This document shows, in pieces, positions 938-34,399 of a DNA stretch of 41,578 nucleotides (positions within the stretch are counted from its first letter, which is position 1; each line of letters opens with the position of its first letter). A program made the translations under genes and the position numbers. The DNA comes from Armatimonadota bacterium (GTDB taxonomy: Bacteria; Armatimonadota; Fimbriimonadia; Fimbriimonadales; Fimbriimonadaceae), in NCBI GenBank assembly GCA_020161505.1, contig JAIUNY010000025.1, positions 1-41,578 of the forward strand, written 5' to 3'. The notes under the pieces are model-generated. The model had not been told where the DNA came from, ran no database searches, and was given only the letters and a program-made list of their open reading frames with translations.

Positions 938-1843
938 CTACTCGCCAGTCTCGAGCCAACGAACCTCTTCCACCGAGAGGCTCTCTGATGCCACGGTCGC
1001 CAGTTCCGCGATCTGCCCGACCGTTTGCGGGCCGACGATGGCTCGGGTGGGGAAGGGCTGATGCAATGTCCACAGCAGAGCCACTTGCACAGGCTTGAGG
1101 CCGCGCTTCGATCCGAGCTCCCGAGCCCGCTCCAGGCGGCGGAAGTTTTCCTCGTTGTGATAGACCCGTCGGACGTCATCGTTGTCGACTTCGGCGAAGA
1201 ATCCGCCGCCCGTCGCGCTCCACGACCACAGAGGCAAGCCGGTGGACGCATGCCACGACCTCTCCTCATCGCCGGCGGTCAGACAGCCGCCCCACATCGG
1301 TTCGTTCACCGTGGCGAGGCTGAGATTAGGGTTGTTGAAAGCAAACGGAACGCCGCCGTGAACCTCGGCATAGGCATTCCAAGCCGCCACGCGTTCGATG
1401 GTCCAGTTGCTGGCCGCCAGAGCCTTGAAATGTCCCGCCTCGTAAGCCGAAACCACCGCTGACATCATCTCCGAGATCGGCACCTCGGGGCCGTCGCGGT
1501 GGAAGCCGACGACATCAATGCATTCGACCTGGAGCCGCTCACGCTCGGCGGCGAGGTCTTCCAAAAAGAACTCAGGCCCGAACCGAGGCTCGCCCCAGGG
1601 GTGACAAATCTTGGTGTAGATGCAGACTTGCTCGGCCACGCCCCGCTTTTGCAGCCAGTTTCCGACGGAGGTTGTGGCTTCGCCACCGCCGTAAACCCAG
1701 GCGGTGTCGATGATGTTGCCCCCGTTCTCCACCCAGGCGTCGAGCATTTCATCGGTTCGATCTTGGGCGTCTGGGGTGAATCCGACGCATCCGATGGCCA
1801 GCACGCTCAAATCGCGCCCATCAGGGCCAGGAATGTGCTTCAC
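938..1843 (-). CDS. Aldo/keto reductase
   Basis: A 301-residue cytoplasmic NADPH-dependent aldo/keto reductase with a TIM-barrel fold; substrate unknown. The family's catalytic tetrad can be placed at Asp46, Tyr51 (DTAWVYGGGEA), Lys78 (YTKICHP) and His115 (VVGFHRD). A C-terminal cofactor-loop-like segment (TRAIVGPQTVGQI) is also present. Translation starts at GTG (1843); GTGA overlaps the TGA stop of the upstream Gfo/Idh/MocA gene, so the two are co-translated. The pair suggests sugar or inositol-type carbohydrate oxidation and reduction, but no transporter or kinase lies nearby to name a substrate. A strong hairpin at 888-924 closes the unit. Confidence 0.88.
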   Translation of the reverse strand: MKHIPGPDGRDLSVLAIGCVGFTPDAQDRTDEMLDAWVENGGNIIDTAWVYGGGEATTSVGNWLQKRGVAEQVCIYTKICHPWGEPRFGPEFFLEDLAAERERLQVECIDVVGFHRDGPEVPISEMMSAVVSAYEAGHFKALAASNWTIERVAAWNAYAEVHGGVPFAFNNPNLSLATVNEPMWGGCLTAGDEERSWHASTGLPLWSWSATGGGFFAEVDNDDVRRVYHNEENFRRLERARELGSKRGLKPVQVALLWTLHQPFPTRAIVGPQTVGQIAELATVASESLSVEEVRWLETGE

Positions 1844-2850
1844 TTTGCGCCTCCCTGAGCCGCGAACAAAGGATCATGCGCGCCAAATCGCAGACCGCCG
1901 CTCAGTCGGAGGGCATCCATGGTTGCGAGGTTCGCCAAGGAGTTTTCGTGCGTCCAGTGGGGAACAACCCGGCCCTCGACACCTGCCGCGAAGACATCCG
2001 CCTCGTTGGCATAGAGCCCAAGCGCGGGAACCACAACTTCTTGCGGATCCTGCCCGCTGAGGTGAATGGTGAACTTGCCGTTGCAGAACCACGGCTCTTC
2101 CACCGTGATATGGCCGAGATCGCCATAGATCGTCGCCTGATTCCGCAGATTGATATGGATTCCGGTGCCGAAGTTGGCGGTCGCTCCGCTCGCGAACTGG
2201 AGGATCCCCGTTCCGACACCATCGTAACCCTCTCCGCACCGCTCAAACGCATATTCAGATCGGCTGGCAGTTTCGCCGAGGACGCTCTGAGCAAACGAGA
2301 TGCAGTAGCATCCGACATCCATCAGGCCGCCTGCGCCGTATTCGAGCACGGTGCGAGAGTCTTTCCAGTCTCGCGATGCCGCGAATCCGAAATCCACTTG
2401 GATGTGCCGAATCGTGCCAATGACCCCTTCGCGCACTTGGCGGACGAGCTCGACCATTTGAGGCTGGAGACGGTACATGAACGCCTCGCAAAAGAGAACA
2501 TCGTTCTCTTGGCAAGCGGCAACCGCCCGCGCTGCATCGGCATGATTGAGAGCGCAAGGCTTCTCGACCAGAACGTGCTTTCCGGCCTGCGCGGCTTCCA
2601 CAGTGAGATCGGCGTGGAGATGGTGCGGCGTGGCAATGTAAACGGCTTGCACGTCGGGATCCGCCAGAGCTTCCGTGTAGGAGCCGTATGGCTTGCCGCC
2701 GAACTCCTGCGCAAACAGGGTCGCGCTCTCGTAACTCCGCGATCCCACCGCGACCAAACGGCCGGTTTCGCTCTTATTCACTCCATCAGCAAAGGCGCGA
2801 GCGATGCGTCCGGTTGCTAAGATTGCCCAATTCAAAGATGTGGTCCCCAT
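1840..2850 (-). CDS. Gfo/Idh/MocA family oxidoreductase
   Basis: A 336-residue NAD(P)-dependent oxidoreductase of the glucose-fructose/inositol dehydrogenase family. The N-terminal Rossmann region carries ATGRIARAF (residues 12-20), a slightly unusual nucleotide-binding loop, and the family signature EKP lies at 96-98 (VLVEKPCALN). The C-terminal half has the expected beta-sheet substrate domain (GGLMDVGCYCI). The ATG at 2850 is preceded by GGAG at a spacing of 7. It is the first gene of a two-gene operon with the aldo/keto reductase. Family assignment is firm; the sugar or polyol substrate is unknown. Confidence 0.9.
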   Translation of the reverse strand: MGTTSLNWAILATGRIARAFADGVNKSETGRLVAVGSRSYESATLFAQEFGGKPYGSYTEALADPDVQAVYIATPHHLHADLTVEAAQAGKHVLVEKPCALNHADAARAVAACQENDVLFCEAFMYRLQPQMVELVRQVREGVIGTIRHIQVDFGFAASRDWKDSRTVLEYGAGGLMDVGCYCISFAQSVLGETASRSEYAFERCGEGYDGVGTGILQFASGATANFGTGIHINLRNQATIYGDLGHITVEEPWFCNGKFTIHLSGQDPQEVVVPALGLYANEADVFAAGVEGRVVPHWTHENSLANLATMDALRLSGGLRFGAHDPLFAAQGGAK

Positions 2851-2970
2851 GCGTTGACTCCGGTTTCACCTTGGCACACGAGACCGGGGCTTCGCTTGGT
2901 CGAACGACGTTTTTCTGCGTTCGACTGGCTCAGTTCGTGAGAACCTTCTCATGGGCTCTCGAATGGGGGC

Positions 2971-2998
2971 TAAAGGTTTTTCCATACCCAACCGAGAA
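2971..2998 (+). promoter_or_regulatory. Sigma-28 (FliA-type) flagellin promoter
   Basis: TAAAG (2971-2975), exactly 15 bases, then ACCGAGAA (2991-2998). The flagellar sigma-28 consensus is TAAAG-N15-GCCGATAA, so the -35 and spacing are perfect and six of eight -10 bases match. It lies about 65 bases before the flagellin start, leaving a leader with a GGAG ribosome site. Confidence 0.75.
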
Positions 2999-3063
2999 TC
3001 CACCTAGTAAGAACACCTGGATTCCGTCTATTCGGTTTGCCAGGCAACAATCGGAGTGACTGA

Positions 3064-4521
3064 GTGAGCCTGAGGATCAATACCAATGTTCCCGCCATGA
3101 CGGCGATGCGGCAGCTGGCCATTAATGAATCGAATATGCAGGGAGCGATTACTCGACTGAGTACCGGCCTGCGAATCAATTCGGCCGCCGATGACCCAGC
3201 GGGCATGATCATCAGCGAAGGTCTGCGCAGCCAAATCAAGGGCGTTCAGCAGGCGATTCGCAACTCCCAAGATGCCACAAACATGTCGAAGACGGCAGAA
3301 GGTGGGCTTGAGGAAGTCTCCCGACTTCTCCTGAGCGTACGGGCGATTGCCGTTTCTTCGGCGAACACCGCCGTTGTTGATGCGAACCAGCTTCAGGCGA
3401 ATCAGAACCAGATTCGCAACATCCTCTCGTCGCTCGACCGAATTGCCGAGCACACAAGCTGGGGCAGCAAGAAGCTTTTGAATGGTGCCAGCGGCACCAT
3501 CACCAACATCACGACGACGAACTCGGTGCGGAGCCTTTACATCGGCTCGACGTTCAATGAGGAGACGGTTCGGTCGGGTTCGGTGACGATGACCCGGGTG
3601 ACCCCGGCGACCCAAACCACGACGGGCGCTCTTGCCACCAACTTCGCGTCCGGCACAGCTGCGGTGAACGCTGGCACTTTCGCGATCAATGGCGTGAGCT
3701 TCACGAGCGAGCCGGGCGAAACGGTCAATAGCCTCCTCTCCAAAATCAACGGCAAGACCAGCGCCACGGGAGTGATGGCGACCTTCACCGCGGGAAGTGG
3801 GATCGCCCTCACTTCAATCCAATACGGCAGCAACTTCCCGATTCAATACACCGAGACGCTGAACATCATGAACGGCGGAGCTTCATCCAGCCCGGCAGTC
3901 GGAGCGGATGCGGTCTTTGATGTCTTGGTCCCGGTGGAGCCAGGTCCTGGCACCACCACAACAGAACGATTTACCGGAGGTCAAGGCCCGGGAGTGGATG
4001 GTCTGACCCTGAGCTCGCCCAGCGGGGCGCGTCTGGCGATTACTCCTGCGGGGAACAACATCGCTGGCGCGACCAACGTGGGGTCGATCACTGTCGGGGC
4101 GGTTCGCTTCCAAATCGGCGCGAACTCGAATCAATACGCCAGTTTCTCGATGCCGAGCGTATTTGCTCGCGATCTCGGCTCGGGCGTTGTGACCGGACAG
4201 AATATCTCCAACATCGACGTTACGACAGAGAACGGAGCGAGCGACGCGATGAGGATCGTCGACGCGGCGATTCAAGAGCTCGGCATCATCCGAGGCAACC
4301 TGGGATCGTTCCAACAGAACTTCCTTGAGTCGAACATGAGGTCTCTGGGCGTCGCTGAAGAGAACTTGACTGCCTCCGAGAGCTACATCCGAGACGCGGA
4401 TATGGCGAAGGAAATGACCGAGTTCACCAAGATCAACATCTTGCGACAGAGCGGCATGAGCGTTCTCGCCCAGGCCAGCCAGTCGCCGCAGAACATCCTG
4501 CAGCTTCTGCGCGGCGGCTAG
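3064..4521 (+). CDS. fliC: Flagellin
   Basis: A 485-residue flagellar filament subunit. The N-terminal D0/D1 helices are typical (MSLRINTNVPAM, INSAADDPAGM, LNG near 140), as is the C-terminal helix (FQQNFLESNM, DADMAKEM, ending LLRGG). The middle, roughly residues 145-385, is the variable surface-exposed part and is Thr/Ser/Gly-rich. Translation starts at GTG (3064) after GGAG at a spacing of 7. It is a one-gene unit between a sigma-28-type promoter and a strong terminator, the usual arrangement for a late flagellar gene. No other flagellar gene is in the window, so export and assembly genes must lie elsewhere. Confidence 0.95.
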   Translation: MSLRINTNVPAMTAMRQLAINESNMQGAITRLSTGLRINSAADDPAGMIISEGLRSQIKGVQQAIRNSQDATNMSKTAEGGLEEVSRLLLSVRAIAVSSANTAVVDANQLQANQNQIRNILSSLDRIAEHTSWGSKKLLNGASGTITNITTTNSVRSLYIGSTFNEETVRSGSVTMTRVTPATQTTTGALATNFASGTAAVNAGTFAINGVSFTSEPGETVNSLLSKINGKTSATGVMATFTAGSGIALTSIQYGSNFPIQYTETLNIMNGGASSSPAVGADAVFDVLVPVEPGPGTTTTERFTGGQGPGVDGLTLSSPSGARLAITPAGNNIAGATNVGSITVGAVRFQIGANSNQYASFSMPSVFARDLGSGVVTGQNISNIDVTTENGASDAMRIVDAAIQELGIIRGNLGSFQQNFLESNMRSLGVAEENLTASESYIRDADMAKEMTEFTKINILRQSGMSVLAQASQSPQNILQLLRGG

Positions 4522-4553
4522 TTCTGAAACCGGGGGGAAGAAATAGGAGAGAG

Positions 4554-4590
4554 CGGGCGAGTCGGCAACGGCTCGCCCGATTTCTATTTT
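4554..4590 (+). terminator. Rho-independent terminator of flagellin
   Basis: CGGGCGAG (4554-4561) pairs with CTCGCCCG (4572-4579) and is followed by the T-rich TTTCTATTTT. It lies 33 bases after the flagellin stop. Confidence 0.85.
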
Positions 4591-4669
4591 GTCGCGGTTC
4601 CTACAGCCTGCGCGTGCCAGTCCAAGCCTGACCCAGGGTCTCGGGCGTATACTCCCGATCCATAAACCT

Positions 4670-6259
4670 ATGAGCAACACCGTCGCAACGGAGCGAGGCG
4701 GCTCCTTCCTCTCCCAAACTCCTGCCTCTATTTTTACGCCCGAAGACTTCACCAGCGATGAGCGCCTGATGGTGCAGATGGCGGAGGATTTCAGCCGCAA
4801 AGAAGTCCTGCCCGTCGTCGAGCGGCTTGAGAAGCAAGAGCAAGGGCTGATGACCGGCCTGATCGCCAAAGCCGGAGCCCTTGGATTCTGCGGAGTCGAT
4901 ACCCCCGAACAATTCGGCGGACTCGGGCTGAGCAAGAACCTCGCCGCGCGGATTCTGGAGCACCTCTCTCTCGATGCCTCGTTCAGCGTCACCGTCGGGA
5001 TCACGAGCGGGATCAGTCAATTCGGTCTGGTGGGGTTTGGCACCGATGAGCAACGGGCGAAGTATCTGCCCCGCCTGACGAGCGGCGAGATCATTGGCGC
5101 GTACGCGCTCAGCGAGCCGAACTCCGGAAGTGATGCCCTGAGCATGACCACCCGCGCGGAAGACAAAGGCGATCACTGGCTGCTCAACGGCACCAAAATG
5201 TGGATCAGCAACGCCCAGTGGGCCGAGTTCTTCCTGGTGATGGCGAAGATTGACGGTGAGCACGTCACGGCTTTTCTCGTGGAGCGAGGGTTCCCCGGCG
5301 TCAGCATCGCCCGTGAAGAGCACAAGATGGGCCTCAAAGGCTCCTCTACCGCTCGCCTCGTGCTGGAAAATGCGGTGGTTCCGAAGGAGAACATGCTGTA
5401 TCTCCCGGGCAAAGGTCACCACGTGGCGTTCAACGCTTTGAACATGGGCCGGTTCAAGCTGGGCTCGATGTCGATCGGCCCAGCGCGTCAAGCCATCGGC
5501 CACGCGACGGCTTACGCCAAAGATCGCAAGCAGTTCGGTCAGCCGATTGCGAACTTCGGTTTGCTCCGCGAAAAGTTCGCCGACATGGCGGCTCTCTACT
5601 TTGCGATCGAAGCGATGCTTTATCGCACCGGAGCGTTGATCGACGGCGCGTTTGCCGAGAGCGACCATTCGCTGGAAGGCAATCGCCTCGCCGCCGAAGA
5701 GTACGCGGTCGAGTGCAGCGCGTGCAAAGTCTTTGCCACTGAGGTTGAGGCGGCGATTGTTGATGACTGCCTGCAGGTCTATGGCGGATATGGATTTACC
5801 GAGGAGTTCCCCGTGGCGCGAATCTATCGGGACGCCCGAATCAGCCGGATTTACGAGGGCACCAACGAGATCAACCGTCTCTTTCTTGCCGATCGTCTGG
5901 TGCGCCGGGCCAACGAAGGGAAGTGCTCGCTGGAGGCGAGTGGAGACAGCTTCATCAACGATTTGACTGGCCGGGCGTATGCTAAGTTCAGCAAGGATCA
6001 GGTGGTACTGGGCGCCCTCTCCGACCTTACGATCCTCGCCTACGCCGAGCAATCGGCGCGGCTCCGGGCGGCGCGTACCGGAGGGCTCGGACAAGCGGCA
6101 TACGAGCGATTCTGCAACTGGGCCAATCCCCGCGCGGCGGCGGCCTATCAAAAGGTCGTGGGCGAAGCAGTGTCACTCCCGGCTCCGTTTGCCGCGCACA
6201 CCGACGCGTTGGCGGAGGCTCTTCTGGCAAAGGATCGTCCGCTTGAGTTCTTGAGTTAG
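4670..6259 (+). CDS. Acyl-CoA dehydrogenase (VLCAD-like)
   Basis: A 529-residue FAD-dependent acyl-CoA dehydrogenase, the first oxidation step of fatty-acid beta-oxidation. The N-terminal helical domain is followed by the FAD/substrate signature ALSEPNSGSDA (146-156), WISN (178-181), DRKQFGQPI (285-293) and YGGYGFTEEF (371-380). The catalytic base is most likely Glu396 in IYEGTNEIN. About 110 extra C-terminal residues after the core resemble the very-long-chain or ACAD9-type extension. The ATG at 4670 is preferred over an in-frame start at 4589, which lies within the flagellin terminator's T tract. TATACT at 4648-4653 is a possible -10. It stands alone, with no electron-transfer flavoprotein or thiolase gene nearby. 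Confidence 0.92.
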   Translation: MSNTVATERGGSFLSQTPASIFTPEDFTSDERLMVQMAEDFSRKEVLPVVERLEKQEQGLMTGLIAKAGALGFCGVDTPEQFGGLGLSKNLAARILEHLSLDASFSVTVGITSGISQFGLVGFGTDEQRAKYLPRLTSGEIIGAYALSEPNSGSDALSMTTRAEDKGDHWLLNGTKMWISNAQWAEFFLVMAKIDGEHVTAFLVERGFPGVSIAREEHKMGLKGSSTARLVLENAVVPKENMLYLPGKGHHVAFNALNMGRFKLGSMSIGPARQAIGHATAYAKDRKQFGQPIANFGLLREKFADMAALYFAIEAMLYRTGALIDGAFAESDHSLEGNRLAAEEYAVECSACKVFATEVEAAIVDDCLQVYGGYGFTEEFPVARIYRDARISRIYEGTNEINRLFLADRLVRRANEGKCSLEASGDSFINDLTGRAYAKFSKDQVVLGALSDLTILAYAEQSARLRAARTGGLGQAAYERFCNWANPRAAAAYQKVVGEAVSLPAPFAAHTDALAEALLAKDRPLEFLS

Positions 6260-8231: not shown

Positions 8232-8858
8232 ATGAGCCATGTGCAAGGAGCCACCCTATTGGCCGCAAGAAGGCTAGACGACGTCGCCGCTGAGAAAGCG
8301 CTGCTCGACCAGTGTCGACGGCAGAACTACGAAGCGTTCGGCCGCGTCGTTGACCTTTACCAGGCCAGAGTTCTCGGATTCGTCCGCCGGATGATCCGGA
8401 ACGAGGAAGAAGCCCTCGATATCACCCAAGAGGTGTTCATCAAGGCCTTCCAAGGCGTGGCCTCTTTCGATGGACGGGCAAGCCTGCGAAGCTGGCTTTT
8501 CCGGATTGCCTATCACTCCTGCATCGACAAAGTGCGGCGCAAAGAACGACAACCGCTGATCCACAGCTACGAACCCACCGACGAAAACGAAGAAACCTTC
8601 GAATTCGCCGACCACCGCTGGGATCCGTCGGAGGTCTTGCTGAACGACGAACTTCGATCCGTCGTCGAACAATCAGTGGCGGAAATGAGCGAGAAACTTC
8701 GGTCGGTGCTCATCCTCCACGATCAGGAAAATATGGGGTACGAAGAGATCGCCCAGGCCATGGATATCCCCGTGGGAACCGTCAAGAGCCGACTCTTCCT
8801 CGCCCGGGCTCATCTGCAAGAACAAGTTGGCCGATACCTTTATGGGAAAGGGGCCTAA
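8232..8858 (+). CDS. ECF RNA polymerase sigma factor
   Basis: A 208-residue group 4 (ECF) sigma-70 factor. Region 2 is evident (YQARVLGFVRRMI, DITQEVFIKAF, LRSWLFRIAYHSCIDKVRR) and region 4 carries the helix-turn-helix YEEIAQAMDIPVGTVKSRL. The ATG at 8232 is chosen because the protein aligns with the family from shortly after it; an upstream in-frame start at 8178 would add 18 unlikely residues. TACAAT at 8201-8206 is a candidate -10. It is the first gene of a cluster with a membrane anti-sigma-like protein 3 bases downstream and an RseB-like protein, so it probably controls envelope stress and perhaps the following penicillin-binding protein genes. Confidence 0.92.
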   Translation: MSHVQGATLLAARRLDDVAAEKALLDQCRRQNYEAFGRVVDLYQARVLGFVRRMIRNEEEALDITQEVFIKAFQGVASFDGRASLRSWLFRIAYHSCIDKVRRKERQPLIHSYEPTDENEETFEFADHRWDPSEVLLNDELRSVVEQSVAEMSEKLRSVLILHDQENMGYEEIAQAMDIPVGTVKSRLFLARAHLQEQVGRYLYGKGA

Positions 8859-21658: not shown

Positions 21659-21734
21659 GCTCCGGTCGTCTAGCGGTTAGGATGTCGCCCTTTCACGGCG
21701 AAGGTCGCGGGTTCGAATCCCGTCCGGAGTACCA
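21659..21734 (+). tRNA. tRNA-Glu (UUC)
   Basis: A full cloverleaf with encoded CCA. The acceptor GCTCCGG pairs with CCGGAGT (first pair G-U). The D arm contains TAGCGGTTAGGA. The anticodon stem TCGCC/GGCGA carries loop CTTTCAC with anticodon TTC at 21692-21694. The T arm is GCGGG-TTCGAAT-CCCGT, the discriminator A is at 21731 and CCA at 21732-21734. The layout matches bacterial tRNA-Glu closely. Confidence 0.95.
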
Positions 21735-21784
21735 GCCTCTTTAGGTTCAAAAAGCAGTTTGCTCAGGTTCAAATTCTGAACCAA

Positions 21785-21831
21785 CCGGACGGGATTCGAA
21801 CTCGTAAGCTCAAGCTAGCAAGCGAATCCCG
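21785..21831 (-). repeat. Inverted tRNA-Glu 3' fragment
   Basis: Positions 21785-21801 are an exact 17-base reverse-complement copy of the tRNA T-arm/acceptor segment 21711-21727. A further CGAATCCCG at 21823-21831 repeats nine bases of the same segment in direct orientation, so the stretch itself forms a 9-bp hairpin (21790-21798 with 21823-21831). It has no complete cloverleaf and its T stem is broken, so it is a fragment, not a second tRNA. Another inverted repeat, GGTTCA/TGAACC (21766-21771/21777-21782), lies just before. This looks like recombination debris at a tRNA integration hotspot. Confidence 0.6.
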
Positions 21832-26118: not shown

Positions 26119-26149
26119 GAGGTTCGTCGGGGTGGGCCCGACGAACCTC
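26119..26149 (-). terminator. 13-bp perfect hairpin after the caspase-like lipoprotein
   Basis: GAGGTTCGTCGGG (26119-26131) pairs perfectly with CCCGACGAACCTC (26137-26149) around a 5-base loop. It lies 10 bases past the lipoprotein stop. No T run follows on either strand, so it may act as an mRNA-end structure or a bidirectional terminator. Confidence 0.5.
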
Positions 26150-31019: not shown

Positions 31020-31922
31020 TTACTTCGAGTGACGCCCGACGAACTCCACGATCGACCGGCCGAATGAGGGATCGATCAAGGTGGTCATGTGGTCTTTGCC
31101 TTCGATGGTTTTGAACTCGGCGTTCGGCAACACGGAGCGGGCTTCGGCGATTCGGGCGAGGATATAGGGGCCCTCTTTGCTGCCGTAGAGAAAGAGAGTC
31201 GGGGTGGTGAGCTGAGCGAGTCGGTCGGCTTTGACCTCCAGCTGACCGAACGACCGGCCCGCCGCGCCAAGCGCCCTCACGTCTTGGTGACCGTACAACT
31301 GCGCGGCAAATTTCTCAGCGTCGGCTTCGCTGGGTTTTGGCATTCCGGCGGGGGTACGCTCGCGCAGATATTCGCCCATCTTGCCCTTTTCGGCAGCGTC
31401 GGCAAAGGCGTCGGCTTCGCTGAATCCCTTCACCTCGCGGATATCCAGCACGGGCGCACTGCCTCCGTAGACCACTGATTTCACTCGTTCCGGAGCGAGA
31501 TCCACGACTTTGCCTGCGACATACGAGCCCATCGAATAGCCGACAATGTGCGCCTTTTCGATTTTGAGATGATCCAGCAGCCTCACGACGTCGGCCGCCA
31601 TCTCCGAGCCGTAGCTGGCCGGGTTGTGGGGTTTGTCGCTCAGGCCATGCCCGCGCAGATCAATCGCGATCACCTGCATTCCCGGAGGAGGGCTCAGCTT
31701 GGGATTCTGCCGTGTGCCGGGTCCCCAGGTGCTGGCTTCGCCTTGCCATCCGTGGAGCAGAACCAGTGGTTCACCGGTTCCGGCAATCAGATATCGAATC
31801 TTGGTGCCCTTGGAATCGAAGGTCTCGCTGCGCGTCTGAGCCGATGCCCCGGGCGATTGGCAGCCGATGAGGGCGGCGACGGAGAGTCCAACCAAGATGA
31901 GTCGAGCAAAAGGAGCGTTCAT
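31020..31922 (-). CDS. Alpha/beta hydrolase lipoprotein
   Basis: A 300-residue alpha/beta hydrolase anchored as a lipoprotein (lipobox ALIG/Cys21). The core is typical: LVLLHGWQG (53-61, oxyanion region), IDLRGHGLSD (87-96), nucleophile Ser130 in VGYSMGS, and His near the C-terminus in EGKDHMT. The ATG at 31922, with AGGA upstream, begins the signal peptide; a longer frame to 31994 adds 24 residues. Its promoter region holds the box CTTTGCAACCGTT, in exact inverted relation to the same box before the divergent ECF sigma operon, so it is probably a member of that sigma factor's regulon. Substrate unknown; ester hydrolysis at the envelope is likely. Confidence 0.85.
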   Translation of the reverse strand: MNAPFARLILVGLSVAALIGCQSPGASAQTRSETFDSKGTKIRYLIAGTGEPLVLLHGWQGEASTWGPGTRQNPKLSPPPGMQVIAIDLRGHGLSDKPHNPASYGSEMAADVVRLLDHLKIEKAHIVGYSMGSYVAGKVVDLAPERVKSVVYGGSAPVLDIREVKGFSEADAFADAAEKGKMGEYLRERTPAGMPKPSEADAEKFAAQLYGHQDVRALGAAGRSFGQLEVKADRLAQLTTPTLFLYGSKEGPYILARIAEARSVLPNAEFKTIEGKDHMTTLIDPSFGRSIVEFVGRHSK

Positions 31923-31932
31923 CGCCCATCCT

Positions 31933-31962
31933 GAGTGGGCCAGGACACAAACGGTTGCAAAG
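31933..31962 (-). promoter_or_regulatory. ECF-type promoter for the hydrolase lipoprotein
   Basis: On the minus strand, CTTTGCAACCGTT (31962-31950), 12 bases, then CACTC (31937-31933), about 11 bases before the ATG. TGCAAC with 17 bases to AsTC is the -35/-10 layout of ECF sigma promoters. It mirrors the plus-strand copy exactly in box and spacing. Confidence 0.65.
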
Positions 31963-31986
31963 TCCCGGCGATGAATTTCTGAAAAT

Positions 31987-32016
31987 CTTTGCAACCGTTC
32001 CCGGGGTCGCCTAGTC
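31987..32016 (+). promoter_or_regulatory. ECF-type promoter for the ECF sigma operon
   Basis: CTTTGCAACCGTT (31987-31999), 12 bases, then TAGTC (32012-32016), 9 bases before GTG 32026. The 13-base box is an exact inverted copy of the one at 31950-31962; the -10 parts (GCCyAsTC) also match at the same distance, so the sigma factor probably autoregulates. Confidence 0.65.
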
Positions 32017-32025
32017 CATGAGGGC

Positions 32026-32400
32026 GTGAGTTACTCTCTCGGCGATGGTCTGGTCACGCTGGCTCTGGCGGCGGGGATTGTGGGCTATGTGTTTGTCGAA
32101 CGCCGGTACCGGATCCAGCGGCTGCAAATTGTGCATGCCGAACGCATGAAGGCGATGGAGCAGGGGATCCCGCTGGTGGAAGTCGGGGAAGATCGGGAGG
32201 GAGAGCGCAAACCTGCGGATACCCGGACGCTGCCGCTTATCGGGCTGATGCTGCTGGCTTTTGCCGTCGGTGCGATGATTGTGATGTTCGCGATCCTGCC
32301 TGTCACACAAAAGCACCTTTGGGTTGCCCCGCTGCCTGTGGCGTTCATGGGCCTCGGGCTGCTTTGGTACCACCTTGTTTTGGAGAAACCACGGTTCTGA
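32026..32400 (+). CDS. DUF6249-like membrane protein
   Basis: A 124-residue inner-membrane protein with three membrane segments: about 7-24, 70-93 and 98-116. Between them RMKAMEQGIPLVEV (about 40-53) resembles the MxxIEKGIP-type cytoplasmic motif of DUF6249 proteins, which often accompany ECF sigma genes. It starts at GTG 32026, nine bases after the ECF-type promoter. Its TGA overlaps the likely CTG start of the sigma gene (CTGA), so the two are coupled. It probably takes part in signalling or membrane anchoring for the sigma factor, but this is inference. Confidence 0.7.
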   Translation: MSYSLGDGLVTLALAAGIVGYVFVERRYRIQRLQIVHAERMKAMEQGIPLVEVGEDREGERKPADTRTLPLIGLMLLAFAVGAMIVMFAILPVTQKHLWVAPLPVAFMGLGLLWYHLVLEKPRF

Positions 32401-32957
32401 TTGCCGATTCTGAGCTCGTTTCTCGCGCGCAACGGGGCGACGACGAGGCGTTTTCCGAACTGGTTGACCGGTATCGGGAACGACTGTTTTTTGTCGCGCT
32501 CTCGGTGCTTGGCCCAGCGTTTTCGCCGGAGGCCGAGGATGCCGCTCAAGTGGGGATCATGAAGGCTTACCGGGCGATCGCGGGATTCCGGGCGGAGTCA
32601 TCGGTGGCTACTTGGCTTTCCCGGATCGTTCGTCACGAGGCACTGGCGATCAAGGCACGGTCGCGTTTCCGGCGTCCGCATCTGGGAGAAGAGTCGATGG
32701 CGGCGATGCCGCATGAGGCGGCCACTCCGGAACAGGAATCTCTGGCAAAGCAGCAGAACGCCGATCTCCAGGCCTGCATCCAGCATCTGCCGGAGATTTA
32801 CCAAACGATTGTCCGACTCTACTACTGGCTCGATTGGCCGGTCGGCGAGATTGCCGCGCTGCTGGTTTTGCCAGAGAACACGGTGAAATCCTATCTTCAT
32901 CGAGCGCGGAAGCTGCTCCACAACTGCCTTTCTCAACGAGGTTACGATGAATCCTAA
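32397..32957 (+). CDS. ECF RNA polymerase sigma factor
   Basis: About 186 residues if read from CTG 32397. Region 2 (DEAFSELVDRYRERLFFVAL, EDAAQVGIMKAYRAIAGF) and region 4 (VGEIAALLVLPENTVKSYLHRARKLL) are clear. No ATG, GTG or close TTG begins the frame: TTG 32364 is the only standard alternative and would add 11 residues. The CTG overlaps the upstream TGA as CTGA, mimicking ATGA coupling, and GGAG lies 11 bases before it, so a non-canonical CTG start is favoured. The third gene of the operon overlaps its end by 11 bases. Confidence 0.85.
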   Translation: MIADSELVSRAQRGDDEAFSELVDRYRERLFFVALSVLGPAFSPEAEDAAQVGIMKAYRAIAGFRAESSVATWLSRIVRHEALAIKARSRFRRPHLGEESMAAMPHEAATPEQESLAKQQNADLQACIQHLPEIYQTIVRLYYWLDWPVGEIAALLVLPENTVKSYLHRARKLLHNCLSQRGYDES

Positions 32958-33249
32958 CATCCCCCAAGACGATCAAGAATTTGACCAGTGGCTTCGGCAG
33001 TCGATGGTCGCCTCGGCTCCTGGGCCGATTTTGCGGCAGAGGGAAGAGCTGCGTGCGGCCCGTGAATGGTCGGCTCAGTTGACGCGGATTCGCCGGGTGT
33101 CGGTGGGACTCTATGCGGTGGGATCGCTGGCGGTGTGCCTCGTCGTGATGGTGCAATCGGGGATGCCTTGGTGGCTGATCGCCGTGTTCATCGGGCTGCC
33201 AGTGGCGGTGCTGGTGGCCGTGGTTTTGACTCTGCGCGCTCGGCGTTAA
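32947..33249 (+). CDS. Small membrane protein, possible anti-sigma partner
   Basis: A 100-residue protein with a soluble, charged N-terminal half (1-50) and two membrane segments (about 51-69 and 74-95), ending in LRARR. No family was recognised. It overlaps the sigma gene's end by 11 bases, with GAGG just before its ATG, and so is the last gene of the ECF operon. Anti-sigma factors usually occupy this place, and its cytoplasmic N-terminus would fit, but no zinc-binding motif is seen. It overlaps the convergent DUF4256 gene by 4 bases. Confidence 0.6.
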   Translation: MNPNIPQDDQEFDQWLRQSMVASAPGPILRQREELRAAREWSAQLTRIRRVSVGLYAVGSLAVCLVVMVQSGMPWWLIAVFIGLPVAVLVAVVLTLRARR

Positions 33250-33848: not shown

Positions 33849-34073
33849 ATGGAGAATCATCCGCTGATCACAATTGACCCAGAAATCCGCAGCGGGAAGC
33901 CCTGTGTGAGAGGGATGAGAATTACAGTGGCCGACGTCCTCGATGCGTTGGCGGTTTATCAGCACTGGGATGCCGTGATTGCGGAATTTCCTTACATCAC
34001 CGAAGACGACATCCGAGCGTGTCTGGCATTTGCCGCTGATCGGGAGCGAAAGACCCGCCACCACGTGGCATGA
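33849..34073 (+). CDS. DUF433 family antitoxin
   Basis: A 74-residue DUF433 protein, the antitoxin-like partner of PIN-like toxins. Seen: ITIDPEIRSGKPCVRGMRIT (about 8-27) and VADVLDALA, the family core with its predicted helix-turn-helix. TAAAAT (33837-33842) lies six bases before the ATG, with TTGGTT 16 bases further upstream (33815-33820), so the mRNA is probably leaderless. It overlaps the toxin gene by four bases (ATGA), the usual arrangement for a toxin-antitoxin pair. Confidence 0.88.
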   Translation: MENHPLITIDPEIRSGKPCVRGMRITVADVLDALAVYQHWDAVIAEFPYITEDDIRACLAFAADRERKTRHHVA

Positions 34074-34399
34074 GTCTGCTGTTTGACGCCCACCTTGCGC
34101 CAGCACTTCCACAGATTCTTGCGATCGAATTCCCCGGTTCGCGTCATGTCGGCGATCTCGGCCTTTCAGCATCTGATCGGGCGATTTGGGAGTTCGCGCT
34201 TCAGAATGGTTTGGTCGTCGTGACAAAGGATGCGGACTTTGAAAACATTGTCCTTCTCCACGCCCCGCCAGGAAAGGTGATTCGGTTGACAATGGGCAAC
34301 TGCCGCACGAGCGATGTGGCAGATTGTCTCATCTCTGCACGTTCGGAGATCATGGACTTCATTTCTGCTCAGGATGAGAGTCTCCTTTTGATTCCGTGA
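34070..34399 (+). CDS. DUF5615 PIN-like toxin
   Basis: A 109-residue PIN-like (Mut7-C-like) protein. Seen: LLFDAHLAPALP (3-14) with the first acidic residue Asp6, GLGLSASDRAIWEFAL-type helix (about 30-45) and VVTKDADF (about 52-59), the second acidic cluster. These fit the DUF5615 toxin family that pairs with DUF433; such PIN-like enzymes are predicted RNases. Target RNA is unknown. Convergent with the DinB gene, 12 bp apart. Confidence 0.85.
   Translation: MSLLFDAHLAPALPQILAIEFPGSRHVGDLGLSASDRAIWEFALQNGLVVVTKDADFENIVLLHAPPGKVIRLTMGNCRTSDVADCLISARSEIMDFISAQDESLLLIP

Follow-up and report, generated by a model that had tools for sequence, protein, structure and literature searches.

What reads an intergenic region in which the same 13-base box stands twice, in mirror image, between the operon of an ECF σ factor and a divergent gene for an exported hydrolase? 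The region lies in a 41,578-nt stretch of Armatimonadota DNA (contig JAIUNY010000025.1), the whole of which is called the window here; the original prediction took it for a pair of identical, divergent ECF promoters through which the σ factor controls itself and its neighbor. Self-activating ECF σ factors that also serve a neighboring gene are a common type of bacterial stress circuit. Judging from sequence, we consider it likely that the region holds two divergent ECF-type promoters and that, through them, the σ factor controls its own operon (positive autoregulation) and probably the divergent exported hydrolase as well.

Genes and boxes of the locus

The relevant features occupy positions 31,020-33,249 of the window (Table 1). 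The product of the second operon gene (184 aa) contains σ2 (PF04542, residues 20-81) and σ4 (PF08281, residues 121-172) domains only and scores 90.7 bits against the TIGR02937 superfamily (cut-off 42.9); its domain content is that of an ECF σ factor (group IV σ70). The gene overlaps the stop codon of the DUF6249-like gene, and none of the codons ATG, GTG, and TTG stands at its conserved start position; the start is probably CTG 32397, which aligns with the GTG starts of the orthologous loci L028-L030, with ATT 32400 as the alternative. Another ECF σ gene of the window (8292-8822) has no TGCAACC box upstream.

The σ gene is flanked by genes for two membrane proteins. The DUF6249-like protein stays under the 33-bit cut-off of PF19762 (28.8 bits, E=1.3e-6), and 5/5 aligned orthologs match this family; a literature search on DUF6249 returned nothing relevant. 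The third gene overlaps the σ gene by 11 nt and is conserved in the ortholog alignment; the AlphaFold model of its 100-aa product has a pLDDT of 76, and the window protein matched no Pfam family above cut-off and no known anti-σ family. This two-helix protein is the likeliest candidate for an anti-σ factor, and the DUF6249-like protein is a possible second partner at the membrane.

Both copies of the box that the original prediction described are present: AACGGTTGCAAAG and, after a gap of 24 nt, its exact reverse complement. Both window promoters read TGCAACC-N15-(TAGTC/CACTC), a layout that is, in sequence terms, the standard ECF geometry GCAACC-N17-GTC. Their identity holds for the −35 boxes and fails for the −10s, which differ (TAGTC vs CACTC); the GCCyAsTC element, placed 12 bases past the box through a three-base miscount, begins after nine (GCCYASTC after nine bases, YASTC after 12). 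The genes start about where they were expected, 9-11 bases past the −10: on the plus strand GTG 32026 follows TAGTC by 9 nt, and on the minus strand ATG 31922 follows CACTC by 10 nt. A separate 9-bp perfect inverted repeat, TTCATCGCC/GGCGATGAA (31918-31926 and 31967-31975), spans the hydrolase start and the intergenic center.

Table 1. Features of the σ operon, the divergent hydrolase gene, and the region between them (window coordinates).
Feature	Position	Strand	Basis
Exported α/β hydrolase, lipobox-like LIGC at residues 18-21; candidate σ target	31020..31922	-	PF00561 (E=1.6e-24); hydrophobic signal sequence
−10 CACTC of the putative hydrolase promoter (TGGTC in L028, L029)	31933..31937	-	Otherwise conserved G missing
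Left arm of perfect 13-bp inverted repeat	31950..31962	.	Inverted-repeat scan
−35 TGCAACC of the putative hydrolase promoter	31953..31959	-	Sequence; TGCAACG equally spaced in L028, L029; unlinked hydrolase orthologs
Right arm of perfect 13-bp inverted repeat	31987..31999	.	Inverted-repeat scan
−35 TGCAACC of the predicted σ operon promoter	31990..31996	+	Sequence; place and spacing in orthologs
−10 TAGTC of the predicted σ operon promoter (orthologs C/T-TGTC), 15 nt past TGCAACC	32012..32016	+	Sequence; spacing peak in orthologs
DUF6249-like protein, 124 aa, ~three hydrophobic segments; operon gene 1	32026..32400	+	Pfam PF19762, hydropathy
ECF σ factor (σ2-σ4); operon gene 2	32397..32957	+	PF04542, PF08281, TIGR02937
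100-aa protein, helical N-terminus, two TM helices; operon gene 3	32947..33249	+	Hydropathy, ortholog alignment, AlphaFold

The σ operon promoter in relatives and in its own genome

Does the promoter travel with the operon? The σ factor has orthologs in Armatimonadota, in Acidobacteriota, and in a MAG that carries the label Acidimicrobiia; the listed identities to the window protein are ~43-51%. Twelve orthologous loci, the window excluded, were compared. GCAAC-N16-YTGTC lies directly upstream of the DUF6249-like gene in 10 of the 12, and a looser form of the box averages 0.1, and reaches at most 2, in shuffled controls of the 12 loci. The spacing peak is sharp: spacings from 8 to 25 otherwise score 0, save one locus at 17 (G068), in which the box is present with a spacer one base longer, bringing the loci with a promoter immediately upstream to 11/12. 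The G068 box was read by hand, and the whole locus was scanned since its start codon was not located, which can only raise the chance expectation; the count also includes L042, a low-coverage contig on which the DUF6249 and σ genes are apparently fused by an internal deletion (9/11 at the common spacing without it). In G611, a one-mismatch box ~3.3 kb upstream of the σ operon, before co-directional acyltransferase and ABC-transporter genes, suggests that the operon is part of an extended one, with a σ-type box ahead of the longer run. The σ operon of this genome (locus L133, found by searching the phylum of L031, the Acidobacteriota strain Occallatibacter savannae AB23; 1602-6090, minus strand) stands directly behind the ABC-transporter/acyltransferase genes.

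The ortholog consensus, (T/C)GCAACC-N15-(C/T)TGTC-(C/T)TA, i.e., GCAACC-N17-GTC, has the AAC-type −35 and the GT-type −10 of ECF targets, with TGTC and not CGTC at −10; the general ECF promoter rule is AAC/CGT (PMC8103513). The three-gene order DUF6249-like/σ/small two-helix membrane protein is conserved along with the promoter, and in the Acidobacteriota loci the box is single and unpaired. With a matching promoter upstream in 11/12 ortholog loci (10 with the same spacing, one with an extra base), the part of the original prediction that concerns positive autoregulation of the σ operon looks well supported. This conservation is stronger evidence beyond chance than the rarity of the 13-base repeat itself, although such repeats (perfect, arms of at least 13, loop of at most 60) are expected only 0.06 times per shuffled window.

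How far does the box reach? The genome-wide search that the original prediction called for recovered both known sites and nothing further: across the window's own genome (G000, 3.14 Mb), TGCAACS-N12-RCCYDSTC matches only twice, both times at this locus, with 0 control matches. Loose box patterns are no commoner in this genome than chance predicts; the box with one mismatch and Y as its first base gave 32 matches vs 38 in controls, and 6 copies of the 10-base core TGCAACCGTT are present, no excess over control. This genome has 14 other ECF genes, and the 700 nt upstream of each contain no (T/C)GCAACS-N17-GT box. A wide regulon was rejected, because loose and strict patterns alike are at chance level outside the two sites; the regulon visible in this genome appears to be this locus.

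Hydrolase promoters with and without a neighboring σ gene

In three genomes, those of the window, L028, and L029, the hydrolase gene adjoins the σ operon, and a matching box lies upstream of it in 3/3. In L028 and L029, where the orthologous hydrolase is likewise divergent, the box reads TGCAACG-N15-TGGTC and the start codon follows after 9 nt; in the window the −10 is CTC, which has lost the G that the other boxes retain. The hydrolase half of the circuit is less certain because this CTC departs from the ortholog GTC, and it counts against control of the hydrolase because an altered −10 can cut ECF transcription sharply (PMC8103513). The σ factor probably does control its divergent neighbor, as originally proposed, given the same arrangement and a GTC-type box in two other genomes, with weaker support than for autoregulation. 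With only 9-10 nt from the hydrolase −10 to the start codon in the window, L028 (4503-4541), and L029, the mRNA leader would be nearly absent.

Most hydrolases of this family do not have such a neighbor. At E <= 1e-40, 20 of the 291 genomes of the phylum have an ortholog, the window's own among them; the σ operon is sparser (5/291 genomes searched), and no σ ortholog was detected in 17 of the 20 hydrolase-bearing genomes. Of these unlinked hydrolases, 14/17 nevertheless carry G(C/A)AAC(C/G)-N17-GT(A/T) near the start (shuffled mean 0.03), two of the 14 (L119, L124) entering the count only once the second position was allowed to be A, a relaxation decided on with the sequences already in view; a stricter GCAAC form finds 12 at N17 and 0-1 at other spacings. 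The −10 follows the class of the gene: GTC/CTC in linked hydrolases, GTA/GTT in unlinked ones, with GTC in 0/17 of the latter. The three linked hydrolases do not form one clade (p-AU 0.001): the window's groups with the unlinked hydrolase of G010, and that of L028 pairs with that of L029.

The hydrolase thus looks like a recurrent ECF target in which the third base of the −10 matches the neighboring σ factor where there is one; the alternative is an ancestral hydrolase-σ linkage followed by several losses. A bolder history, which we put forward tentatively and regard as possible more than probable, is that the hydrolase has long been an ECF target of its family and that the σ operon landed or stayed beside at least two hydrolase lineages, the −10 being matched each time (GTA/GTT vs GTC/CTC); this would be repeated regulatory capture through a one-base change. 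A search of six genomes with the hydrolase-type box, TCGCAACS-N17-GTW, gave 69 matches vs 60 in controls, no evident regulon.

The proposed circuit, its rivals, and known systems

In the usual ECF scheme, a membrane anti-σ factor holds the σ factor until its release, after which the σ factor directs transcription of its own operon and of its targets (PMC8103513). At this locus, the σ factor made from the second operon gene would be held at the membrane by an anti-σ factor, most likely the 100-aa protein with two TM helices, and then released; the signal may be envelope stress, as the membrane partners and the exported target lead us to guess. RNA polymerase carrying the released σ would then read TGCAACC/TAGTC, so that the DUF6249-σ-small membrane protein operon is transcribed, and the same σ would probably also read TGCAACC/CACTC, leading to transcription of the exported α/β hydrolase. 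Speaking against this circuit, the genes start only 9-10 nt past the −10s and their leaders would be near-absent; the 9-nt hydrolase distance is kept in L028 and L029.

But is it this σ factor that reads both promoters, as we infer? AAC/GT boxes are read by many ECF σ factors, so cross-reading by another one is possible. The σ factor could drive its own operon only and leave the hydrolase promoter to a different ECF σ, as genomes with the hydrolase but without this σ factor must do, a reading that fits the 17 hydrolase orthologs in genomes with no detected σ ortholog, the 14/17 unlinked boxes that share the geometry with GTA/GTT at the −10, and the CTC, not GTC, of the window hydrolase. Yet the −10 ends in TC, like that of the σ factor's own promoter, in 3/3 linked hydrolases and in 0/17 unlinked ones, and no other ECF gene of the window's genome has such a box upstream. 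A second reader is not readily found elsewhere either: the ECF genes checked in G010 and G128 (those of the 37 ECF genes that had loci) have no GTA/GTT box upstream, and a single GTC match lies upstream of an ECF gene in G128. We regard a different reader for the hydrolase promoter as unlikely.

The remaining readings deny that the boxes are promoters at all. Could the 13-bp inverted repeat serve as an operator with two arms, bound by a repressor or an activator, or form an RNA hairpin? Its arms are perfect, such repeats are rare by chance, and as RNA it is predicted to fold at −19.5 kcal/mol (z −2.7). The symmetry, however, is missing from relatives: perfect inverted repeats of at least 8 nt are absent from the L028 intergenic region, and that of L029 has only an unrelated 8-mer; the distance between the −35 cores is 34 and 44 nt in these loci vs 30 nt in the window. 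A mirror that is not conserved and a core distance that varies argue against a dyad operator or hairpin, which we rejected, and for two independent promoters; so do the single box of the Acidobacteriota loci and conservation that includes a −10 at constant distance, for which an operator has no use, and a hairpin would not be transcribed from the two predicted start sites, both of which lie downstream of the repeat. An operator or hairpin is therefore very unlikely, and the mirror image is incidental: what is conserved is the −35 cores, not the 13-base symmetry. Least likely of all, and only barely credible, is a chance resemblance, with σ70 promoters elsewhere driving both genes and the mirrored boxes being accidental; the 10-base core being no more frequent than in the control and loose patterns at chance level would agree with it, but the conservation of exact spacing across phyla and the stricter pattern, with only two matches in 3.14 Mb vs 0 in controls, would not.

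Two divergent promoters read by the adjacent σ factor would have known parallels. Autoregulated ECF operons with a membrane anti-σ factor (PMC8103513) share with this locus the σ2-σ4 architecture, the AAC −35 and GT −10, the promoter before the σ factor's own operon, and a co-oriented small membrane protein; here, by contrast, the first gene encodes a DUF6249-like membrane protein, the candidate anti-σ factor has no Pfam family above cut-off, and the visible regulon is one locus in its own genome. Targets of Streptomyces coelicolor σE include TGCAACC...CGTCTG and TGCAACC-N16-CGTC promoters (PMC6767563); the −35 core and spacing are common to both systems, whereas the −10 is C/T-TGTC in the orthologs and TAGTC/CACTC in the window, not CGTC, and the σE regulon, an envelope regulon, is large while the window box has two genomic sites. 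According to the citation of Qiu and Helmann (2001) in PMC6767563, single −10 bases tell apart the overlapping regulons of Bacillus ECF σ factors; as far as that citation goes, the single-base difference between linked GTC/CTC and unlinked GTA/GTT hydrolases is alike, except that it is here a sequence correlation across genomes. The originally suggested likeness to the TGCAAC of Bacillus SigV is unconfirmed, a literature search on it having returned nothing relevant.

What is known, then, is the type of ECF autoregulation and discrimination by one −10 base; what is new is this particular operon and promoter, and the literature searched held no experimental work on an ECF σ factor of Armatimonadota or Acidobacteriota. 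For an ECF σ operon common to both phyla, the locus supplies a promoter that is conserved and open to testing, and it brings an ECF operon together with a DUF6249-like protein; the linked and unlinked hydrolases form a natural promoter set for a one-base hand-over of the −10 between σ factors. Elsewhere in the window, two more perfect inverted repeats with arms of at least 13 (21714-21798 and 26119-26149) are possibly terminators, and two small overlapping genes at 33849-34399 resemble, by eye, a DUF433/DUF5615-type pair.
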